From Thermococcus alcaliphilus (GTDB taxonomy: Archaea > Methanobacteriota_B > Thermococci > Thermococcales > Thermococcaceae), in contig NZ_JAMXLV010000021.1 of the NCBI RefSeq assembly GCF_024054535.1, forward strand, positions 186,001 to 250,000: a DNA stretch of 64,000 nucleotides, given 5' to 3'. Made by a program: the position numbers and the translations under genes. Positions 51,027-53,219 of the stretch are shown here, in pieces; positions within the stretch are counted from its first letter, which is position 1, and each line of letters starts with the position of its first letter. Below the pieces are notes generated by a model that saw only the letters and a program-made list of their open reading frames with translations, was not told where the DNA came from and ran no database searches.

Positions 51027-51341
51027 TCACCCATTTATCTCAAGTGCCTGAATGACACTATGAGCATCTTCAAACACAAGCCTGATAGAGATAACGTCTT
51101 CAATTTTTAGCACTAACAAGGCATTTCCTTCTTTAAGTACCAACTTGGCCTCATCAATCTCATTTTCCTCAAGTTTTTTCATGGCATATTTAAGCTTTTC
51201 ATCTTTACTCTCGAGCATATCATCTAGAAGAGATGCTCTGTTTTCTATTTCAATGTCCAACAGTTTGTAGTCTGAAACCTTCTCTAAGAATTCCTTGAGT
51301 TTTTTAACTTCTTTAATGGGATAGATTCTAAGATCTTCCAT
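51027..51341 (-). CDS. Uncharacterised small protein upstream of bud32
   Basis: A 104-residue, soluble protein, mostly helical (VKKLKEFLEKVSDY, LKYAMKKLEEN) with a beta-strand C-terminal part (KEGNALLVLKIEDVISIRLVFED). No family recognised. ATG 51341 follows GGTGCTGTGAAT. Ends 5 nt before the bud32 start, so the genes are cotranscribed; a role in t6A modification or KEOPS (for example, an adaptor) is only a guess from this. Confidence 0.75.
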   Translation of the reverse strand: MEDLRIYPIKEVKKLKEFLEKVSDYKLLDIEIENRASLLDDMLESKDEKLKYAMKKLEENEIDEAKLVLKEGNALLVLKIEDVISIRLVFEDAHSVIQALEING

Positions 51342-51417
51342 ATTCACAGCACCACTTGTATTTGTCTTGTAAGTGTATTAAAGTTTCTCGAACATTTGGC
51401 AAAAGGTTTAAATACTA

Positions 51418-51439
51418 TGTCAACTTACATTGGTTGACA
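51418..51439. promoter_or_regulatory. Inverted repeat TGTCAAC-N8-GTTGACA at operon promoter
   Basis: Two perfect 7-bp arms, 51418-51424 and 51433-51439, with 8-bp spacer. They begin right after the TATA box GGTTTAAATACT (about 51406-51417) and cover the expected transcription start of the 51460 operon, whose last gene encodes an HTH protein. This is the position of an autoregulatory operator. Confidence 0.55.
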
Positions 51440-51459
51440 AGAATTCAATGGTGAAGTGA

Positions 51460-52134
51460 ATGAAAGTTGAGGGCGCATGGCCCATAACCCCTCTAGGAGT
51501 TTCAAGGATTTTTGTAATATTGGGATATTCTCTAATGATTGCGAGTTTAATTCTTCAAGTCCACGTTGGAGAACTTGTTTGGGTCGGAGTTACCCTTCTT
51601 GTACTCTCTGGGGGAAGGGGTATAGAGATTAAAGAAGATGGGCTTGTTTTAAAATATCTTTTCTGGAAGGTTAAGATACCTTTTGAGGAAATCAAAGAGG
51701 TAATGCTTGCGAATGAGCTCAGAGAGGCCAAATTATTTAGATACAACTGGAAAGATGCAGGACTTGTAGTGTTGCTCTTTATTATAACCCTCATTAAAGC
51801 CCCATGGAGAGAATTCCCTCTCCTTTTTCTCTGGATTTTTGTCATTTATGTTGCTTATTTCTTGTATCTCTTTGTTCCAATCTATAAAATTTGGGAAGAC
51901 TTCGGGAAAATCTTTTTGGGTATTGTAGTGCTGCTTCCCATATTCTCCGCCTTAGTTGGTGAAAACCCAGTTCTTGGAGTATTTCTTGGGATTGTATTTC
52001 TCGTGTTTACCGTTTTCTGGACAAGATTCGACTACATAATTGTCAATACTGTGGGAAAAGATAGTATTGTAATAGGATGCCCTGATGGAAAAAAAGCTAT
52101 CAAAATGTTTATGGGTGTTAAAAATGAAGCTTGA
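51460..52134 (+). CDS. Membrane protein A of HTH-linked operon (PH-like)
   Basis: 224 residues: two N-terminal hydrophobic helices (about 16-50), a beta-rich cytoplasmic segment GIEIKEDGLVLKYLFWKVKIPFEEIKEVML (about residues 54-84, described in pieces), two or three more helices (about 100-190) and a C-terminal tail DYIIVNTVGKDSIVIGC plus a terminal helix. The strand-helix pattern flanking the membrane part recalls bacterial PH-like (bPH2) membrane proteins; this is inference. Paralogue of the next gene (both start MKxEGxxP). Good GGTGAAGTG site before ATG. Confidence 0.8.
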   Translation: MKVEGAWPITPLGVSRIFVILGYSLMIASLILQVHVGELVWVGVTLLVLSGGRGIEIKEDGLVLKYLFWKVKIPFEEIKEVMLANELREAKLFRYNWKDAGLVVLLFIITLIKAPWREFPLLFLWIFVIYVAYFLYLFVPIYKIWEDFGKIFLGIVVLLPIFSALVGENPVLGVFLGIVFLVFTVFWTRFDYIIVNTVGKDSIVIGCPDGKKAIKMFMGVKNEA

Positions 52135-52834
52135 AGGGGTCAGGCCTTCGAACTTTAGTGGTATTCCATTGCTGATAGCCATTCTCTCTTTTGTTCTAAT
52201 ACTAGGAGCCATGGAGCTCTCCTATTGGTGGATGTGGACAGTTGGGTGGATTCTTATTTTTGCTTCATGGGGAGTATCGGCTAAAATTGAAAATAAAACC
52301 CTGATTCTCAAATATGCCTTCGGATTGTTGCCCATAAAGCTCAAAGGAGAAGACATCGAGGAAGTCTTAGTTTTGAACAGACTGGAAAAGGGTGTTCTTC
52401 TGAGGCATTTTCCCGGAATTGGAATGGCCTATATGGGTGTACTTGTATATGCATTATATCGTTATTTTGCACTTCCGGAAAACCTTCTGCCGGGCTATTA
52501 TGTGGGAGTTGTTGCACTCATTGTATTCTCGAGCTCTATACTAATTTCAATAGCGGTACCCCTTGGAAAAACCTCTCATAAACTTCTCATAACAGCAGCT
52601 ATTTCTATCGCTGGTGCATCTCTTTTATGGATTAAGAGCTCTGAAGTCGAATTGATCCCAACGATACCCTTCTTCTTAATTGTGATGGCTCTTTGGATAG
52701 TGTATGACATGGATACTGAAGATTATATTGTCCTGAAAACAAAGAAAGGTAAATACCTCTTAACCTCTAATGCTCCGAGAGATAAAGTGGAAAAAGCAAT
52801 TAAAGGAATTATGGAGGTTTTAATCGATGATTAA
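52124..52834 (+). CDS. Membrane protein B of HTH-linked operon (PH-like)
   Basis: 236 residues, tandem paralogue of protein A with the same order: two helices, then AKIENKTLILKYAFGLLPIK strand region (about 60-79), a charged helix EDIEEVLVLNRLEKG, further helices (about 105-200) and a C-terminal DYIVLKTKKGKYLLTSN plus final helix. ATG 52124 (MKLEGVRP) overlaps the end of gene A by 11 nt and follows GGGTGTTAAAA; the frame back to 52085 is not a likely start. Function unknown. Confidence 0.8.
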   Translation: MKLEGVRPSNFSGIPLLIAILSFVLILGAMELSYWWMWTVGWILIFASWGVSAKIENKTLILKYAFGLLPIKLKGEDIEEVLVLNRLEKGVLLRHFPGIGMAYMGVLVYALYRYFALPENLLPGYYVGVVALIVFSSSILISIAVPLGKTSHKLLITAAISIAGASLLWIKSSEVELIPTIPFFLIVMALWIVYDMDTEDYIVLKTKKGKYLLTSNAPRDKVEKAIKGIMEVLIDD

Positions 52835-53219
52835 GCTCCCGGAAAGCATGGAGAGAATCTGGAGTATGAGAGCCAAAGGAATGAGGGAAATAGAAATAGC
52901 AGAGAGTCTTGGAATTTCCAGGCAGGCCGTGAACAAAGCTTTGAAAGAGGCTAAAGCTAAGCTATTTGAGGCATTCTTTTCCTTGGCTGAGACATTTTCG
53001 TGGGAAATCGTGAGAGTAAACGCTGAAAAGGGTTTTATGGTTGCAAGAGGGAGATGTGGTGGTAAAACAATAAGGATTTACGCATTCTACCTGCCAGAGA
53101 AGGGGATAAGGGCATTTTTTGGCAATGAAATTCCAGAATTTATTCTTCAACACGCTTTGGAGTTTGGAATCATTAAAAAACTAGACAAGAAGGAGCTGAT
53201 AAATGCCTTGGAGAGATGA
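52827..53219 (+). CDS. Small HTH transcription regulator
   Basis: 130 residues: N-terminal helix-turn-helix, MRAKGMREIEIAESLGI (about 14-30) and SRQAVNKALKEAKAKL (about 31-46), of the sigma-r4/Lsr2-like or Fis-type orientation, followed by a beta-rich C-domain with GFMVARGRCGGKTIRIYAFYLP (about 68-89), perhaps a ligand or oligomerisation domain. GGAGG 8 nt before the ATG; overlaps gene B by 8 nt, so it is translationally coupled with two membrane proteins. The palindrome at 51418-51439 is its likely target (inference). Confidence 0.85.
   Translation: MIKLPESMERIWSMRAKGMREIEIAESLGISRQAVNKALKEAKAKLFEAFFSLAETFSWEIVRVNAEKGFMVARGRCGGKTIRIYAFYLPEKGIRAFFGNEIPEFILQHALEFGIIKKLDKKELINALER

Follow-up and report, generated by a model that had tools for sequence, protein, structure and literature searches.

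What does a small helix-turn-helix (HTH) protein control when its gene stands behind two membrane-protein genes and a single palindrome stands at the promoter of all three? We know of few ways in which archaea pass a signal from the membrane to a promoter without two-component systems, and this Thermococcus operon appears to be a membrane-linked switch of a kind not yet described in archaea, a reading that rests on related regulator, palindrome and membrane-protein units in a distant archaeal group. The operon lies in a stretch of 64,000 nucleotides (the window; contig C21 of genome G000), and those relatives of its HTH gene that bear names are from Thermococcus or Thermococci only. A sequence-only reading of the window had pointed out the palindrome and the genes behind it and knew of no described system with this order; a search of the literature likewise found no description of the motif or of the gene order.

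The operon promoter, as read from the sequence, comprises a BRE (AAAAGG) and a TATA box (TTTAAATA) at 51401..51414 on the forward strand. The TATA box ends three bases upstream of a perfect inverted repeat, TGTCAAC-N8-GTTGACA, which the sequence-only reading had rightly placed beside it and which forms a putative 22 bp operator for the HTH protein (TGTCAACTTACATTGGTTGACA, 51418–51439, no strand assigned). In the window the palindrome occurs as a single copy even at two mismatches, with 0.09 copies expected by chance. Three forward-strand genes follow: membrane paralogue 1 (51460..52134, 224 amino acids), membrane paralogue 2 (52124..52834, 236 amino acids) and the HTH regulator (52827..53219, 130 amino acids). 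The first two overlap by 11 nt and the last two by 8 nt, in line with the tandem paralogues and coupled HTH gene proposed earlier. On the reverse strand at 51027-51347 lies a gene for a 106-residue protein of unassigned function, which evolves fast, overlaps the Bud32 kinase gene and is retained where the operon is absent.

Among 39 homologous promoters the distance from the TTAAATA core to the palindrome is fixed in nearly all cases. Most arm positions reach near 2 bits in the alignment, conservation drops right behind the repeat, and the conservation of the repeat is far above chance. Transcription in T. kodakarensis starts about 23 bp past the TATA box (PMC4247193), so the operator would span the stretch between TATA box and start, which is the position of a repressor site. 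Genome comparison thus shows the operon and the place of its operator, while repression as the direction of control we infer from the position of the site only. An RNA hairpin or terminator was considered and rejected: the repeat lies mostly upstream of the expected start, Rfam gave no match for it, and the arms, instead of covarying, stay the same from promoter to promoter, as those of a DNA site would. The hexamer TTGACA, which in bacteria is read by sigma region 4, is present in both operator arms; we treat this as a coincidence of possible interest and not as evidence. In one genome (G115; L135, near 4311, reverse strand) a GC-rich hairpin sequence replaces the TATA region upstream of the operator, as if the promoter had been cut by an insertion.

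Across 115 genomes from the phylum, a profile search detected the HTH gene in 45 (full length in 44, truncated by a contig end in one), all of them members of the window's own family. Each of them has the palindrome in the promoter of the HTH operon, 38 with the exact core (GTCAACN8GTTGAC) and seven, G028 among them, with a site in the same place and one or two arm bases changed. The 38 genomes with the exact core all bear the HTH gene and hold one copy each, except for the fragmented genome G099, where two sites lie on two contigs with an HTH match beside each. None of the 70 genomes without the HTH gene contains the exact core, and none of them contains the membrane family. The membrane-family profile finds 43 genomes, all HTH-bearing and with the listed positions in the HTH operon; a divergent member was detected by BLAST in the HTH genomes G075 and G115, and at least a trace of the family is present in every HTH genome. 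The sequence-only reading had made its proposal depend on the genes co-occurring in other genomes, which they do in 45 of 45, a count of genomes that share descent and are not independent events.

Genomes of the window's genus that have the operon hold one site each at up to three mismatches over 22 bases, apart from an extra three-mismatch match in G007, and with no other second site in the genus we rejected a larger regulon. Because the site is essentially unique in each genome, the operon that encodes the regulator is apparently its sole target. Comparison of the genomes shows one site per genome and a strict co-occurrence of site, HTH gene and membrane genes. In G064 the membrane gene is reduced to a short remnant while operator and HTH gene are intact, which ties the site to the HTH protein.

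The operon is found between the Bud32 and UPF0029 genes in the window's genus and beside a methyltransferase gene in most other genomes. G005 and G008 have clean empty sites, and G017, G025 and G031 hold decayed HTH remnants with no membrane genes left. These remnants are fossil C-terminal HTH fragments (L050, L048 and L049, respectively); upstream of L048 and L049 there is still a TATA-like box, together with what may be a single operator arm. An origin from a plasmid or virus was rejected, as searches of plasmids and viral contigs gave no match to the HTH protein, and searches of phages none to the membrane protein.

The model of the HTH protein (pLDDT 94.8) has three N-terminal helices (6-16, 21-28 and a long third at 32-56), four strands within residues 60-98 and then two helices, and so bears out the earlier suggestion that this protein has a beta domain of its own. 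Its N-terminal part, a sigma-region-4-like or Tfx-like HTH, matches sigma region 4 and similar HTH families below cut-off, and matches in fold searches of PDB and viral structures are confined to it. Within Thermococcaceae the DNA-contact helix, SRQAVNK, hardly varies, and the C-terminal domain has conserved residues R63, N65, E67, K68, G69, F70, R83 and Y85.

The two membrane proteins of the window are paralogues, with cross-matches down to E values of 1e-7/1e-8 among their orthologues. A PH domain consists of a seven-stranded sheet capped by a C-terminal helix. The AF2 model of paralogue 2 (pLDDT 91.8), with about six transmembrane helices, runs through two transmembrane helices, four strands, four transmembrane helices, two strands and a C-terminal helix. 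Its strands lie at residues 5-7, 51-82 (four) and 199-214 (two) and its C-terminal helix at 218-233, in the numbering of the model, from which Met1 is missing; there is no large extracellular domain. Both window proteins give separate half-domain PH matches in Pfam, and in the family bPH_8 matches 22 of 41 members and bPH_5 18 of 41, with a best E value of about 2e-6. The window proteins themselves score 18.6 and 15.9 bits, below the bacterial PH gathering score of 27. PH chains are among the weak matches of a PDB fold search with the membrane protein (best PH E value 0.17, probability 0.96). When the transmembrane insertion was removed in silico, the Pfam PH match of paralogue 1 improved to 8e-5, with a bPH_4 match crossing the junction, and that of paralogue 2 reached only 1.5e-3, a result that is supportive of the PH reading but not decisive. 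Sequence and model together support reading these proteins, including paralogue 1, as a PH-like domain split by four transmembrane helices, with sequence scores below the gathering cut-offs. The PH-like strand segments of the sequence-only reading are supported by the modelled strands and the bPH_8 and bPH_5 matches, and are qualified by the sub-threshold scores and the weak PDB matches.

Related genomes have from one to five membrane genes between the operator and the HTH gene. The gene order and palindrome noted earlier are conserved, but the membrane genes are not always two. Conservation is far lower among the membrane proteins than in the HTH protein; they form several groups, between which similarity can still be recognised. 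Between the window and L032 or L033 the synonymous divergence (dS) of paralogue 1 (51460-52134 in the window) is about 0.07, about seven- to fourteenfold below that of its operon neighbours, paralogue 2 and the HTH gene (0.5–0.96). Between L034 and L035, DNA identity is about 96% for paralogue 1, about 63% for paralogue 2 and about 92% for the HTH gene. Since genes within one operon differ in their histories, these comparisons show a turnover of cassettes in which, judged by divergence, single membrane genes are replaced or exchanged between species, with a recent exchange of paralogue 1.

The membrane-family profile was also run against 300 genomes of a different archaeal phylum and gave one match, in G414 (L157, 1463-2699). 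Here the membrane gene and that of an HTH relative overlap; the relative (45% identity over 99 residues) passes the sigma-region-4 cut-offs, and a perfect palindrome, AGTAAACCTACATAGGTTTACT, lies directly behind TTAAATA. Relative to Thermococcus this operator has the same base change in both arms, and the contact helix reads SKQAVSK instead of SRQAVNK. In G351 (L172, 4378-5454) the exact TGTCAACCACTATAGGTTGACA (TGTCAACN8GTTGACA) follows a TATA-like box and the gene order is reversed, with the HTH relative (35% identity over 91 residues) ahead of the membrane protein; the latter contains an unbroken bPH_5 domain (E value 6e-20) that passes the gathering score, with 71.6 against 22.5. In G594 the two genes occur as a pair that contains an in-frame stop, and a palindrome is not clearly recognisable. 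The trio of HTH protein, membrane partner and operator therefore recurs in a second phylum.

A wider HTH profile found further HTH relatives. At 13 of 17 distant HTH loci a 22-bp pattern, TGTNAR-N10-YTNACA, lies near the HTH start with no more than one mismatch, in most cases immediately after a TATA-like box. The remaining sequence of these loci would lead one to expect 0.24 such sites, an optimistic figure because the pattern was written after these sequences had been viewed; one of the 13 sites (L188) differs from the site judged best by eye. A membrane gene directly follows the HTH gene at 13 of the 17 loci, eight of these pairs overlapping by exactly four bases, and 12 of the 13 partners start with a short cytoplasmic motif of the G-W-L-P-x-E-P or W-C-x-x-P type ahead of the first transmembrane helix. 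Among the distant HTH relatives at L176-L192, membrane genes with G-W-x-P or W-C-P motifs stand behind the HTH gene, with up to three in tandem (L186). A 169-residue membrane protein behind one distant HTH gene (L185, 860-1369, reverse strand) looks PH-like by eye and has no Pfam match.

It is possible, at somewhat less than even odds, that the Thermococcus operon represents a single branch of a wide and so far undescribed class of archaeal membrane-coupled autoregulators. Its members would share an HTH protein whose C-terminal domain is of beta type, an operator of 22 bp (TGTNAR-N10-YTNACA) directly behind the TATA box, and one or more co-translated membrane partners that are PH-like or dock through a short W-x-P motif on the cytoplasmic side. 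With parts of independent origin, such a class would mirror in archaea the membrane sequestration seen in bacterial anti-sigma and SdpRI-type systems, and might point to a function for the "dark matter" membrane proteins with W-C-P motifs.

We put at roughly 0.6 the probability that the operon is a self-contained autorepressor switch, probably relieved by its own membrane partners and perhaps serving membrane immunity. The HTH protein, probably as a dimer, would bind its own operon at the palindrome, which separates TATA box and transcription start, and so block recruitment of RNA polymerase; the genome comparisons make both this binding and the autorepression highly probable. The membrane proteins made along with it would turn their PH-like domain toward the cytoplasm and, when the membrane is perturbed, would retain the HTH protein at the membrane or free it from the DNA in some other way, whereupon more membrane protein would be made. 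They would thus be the effectors and, probably, also the signal input. In Bacillus subtilis the autorepressor SdpR is held at the membrane by SdpI (PMC1626106), and by this analogy we give sequestration of the HTH protein only slightly less than an even chance. Fast single-gene turnover and exchange, together with the known involvement of membrane proteins with PH domains in the export of bacteriocins and in resistance to them (PMC8657885, PMC10311245), suggest that the swappable membrane proteins most likely guard against toxins, archaeocins or other membrane-active agents; an immunity-type role, also argued by analogy, we propose tentatively. A search for a toxin or archaeocin gene linked to the operon found none.

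Other explanations account for parts of the same evidence. The C-terminal domain of the HTH protein, with its conserved residues and confidently predicted fold, might sense a soluble ligand in the manner of classical one-component regulators, leaving the membrane proteins as regulated cargo that does no signalling. We think this unlikely: in two phyla the HTH gene is strictly coupled to the genes of membrane partners, with translational overlap, and many distant partners have a short W-x-P motif at the N-terminus, as for a shared docking site. PH domains often bind lipids. The membrane proteins, modelled with no large extracellular part, could therefore monitor and adjust the lipid state of the membrane and have no role in conflict; this is slightly less likely again, because a copy number of one to five, replacement of single genes among closely related species and a scattered occurrence speak more for conflict than for housekeeping.

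The operon might instead be a selfish unit resembling a toxin-antitoxin pair, in which over-made membrane proteins are harmful and the HTH protein is kept to restrain them. That no membrane genes were found without the HTH gene would suit this, as would the persistence of the HTH gene beside a broken membrane gene in G064 and the three genomes with HTH remnants and no membrane genes; but the asymmetry is seen in only one genome, no mobility genes were seen, and the two clean empty sites show the operon to be dispensable, so we consider such a unit improbable. That a different regulator, encoded elsewhere, binds the palindrome is very improbable, given that the site is present or absent together with the HTH gene and is found again in front of HTH relatives in G414 and G351, from the other phylum.

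Genomes of two phyla directly reveal a regulator, its single operator and its membrane partners, so that signalling from membrane to promoter becomes testable in the genetically tractable Thermococcus. The operon also offers a handle on fast-evolving membrane genes that otherwise go unannotated.

Archaeal initiation uses TBP and TFB. The earlier comparison with sigma/anti-sigma-like logic can accordingly be kept as a loose analogy only, given this mode of initiation, the lack of a sigma region 2 and a site in repressor position. An ECF sigma/anti-sigma pair was rejected on the same lines: the protein has a region-4-like HTH only, residues 60-130 form the beta domain and two helices, and the promoter is of BRE/TATA rather than bacterial type, with the site downstream of the TATA box. 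Tfx (TIGR00721; 1NR3, 8HNO) has a similar N-terminal HTH (hhalign probability 92% over residues 4-46) and also binds downstream of a promoter (PMC3087415). The C-terminal domains do not align, however, with the profile comparison covering HTH residues 4-46 only, and membership in the Tfx family was rejected at 18.9 bits against the TIGR00721 cut-off of 60.25. The same genome has a separate Tfx-like gene (contig C22, L027) whose orthologues match 8HNO and 1NR3.

On the membrane side, the bacteriocin-related PH proteins (YdbS/YdbT, DdE/DdF and SunI-like bPH_8 proteins) also combine transmembrane helices with a bacterial PH domain and often occur as gene pairs; in Thermococcus the PH-like domain is split by four transmembrane helices, the regulator is in the same operon, and the operon lacks bacteriocin and ABC transporter genes. 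DUF1673 (arCOG06827, "MGWCP motif") is an expanded membrane family of Methanosarcina with no assigned function (PMC4158269). Like the distant partners with their G-W-x-P motifs, it carries a short G-W-C-P motif in an expanded, fast-evolving family, a resemblance of motif only, and the distant partners have no Pfam match to DUF1673. The VARTIG loci resemble the operon as hypervariable loci of Thermococcales with variable membrane-protein genes, and the paper describing them mentions neither HTH nor PH domains (PMC8416519). The operon was rejected as a VARTIG locus, since in the window it consists of two membrane genes and an HTH gene, and a Pfam scan that covered these and flanking genes found no Ig domain. 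Catalogued anti-phage defence was rejected as well: in PADLOC the membrane proteins have no match and the regulator has weak matches to its HTH only.

SdpR is a winged-helix protein of the ArsR type. SdpI is not a PH protein, and Pfam finds neither an ArsR-type regulator nor the SdpI family among the operon proteins of the window. The Thermococcus operon differs from SdpRI in its one to five membrane paralogues, its archaeal TATA promoter and its unrelated regulator. In SdpRI a small DNA-binding autorepressor and a polytopic membrane protein share one operon, and SdpI acts both as immunity protein and as the receptor that holds SdpR at the membrane (PMC1626106); for Thermococcus such sequestration is proposed by analogy, and the two systems have in common a regulator and a polytopic membrane protein encoded in one operon, with an operator at the promoter that in Thermococcus is recognised by its conservation.
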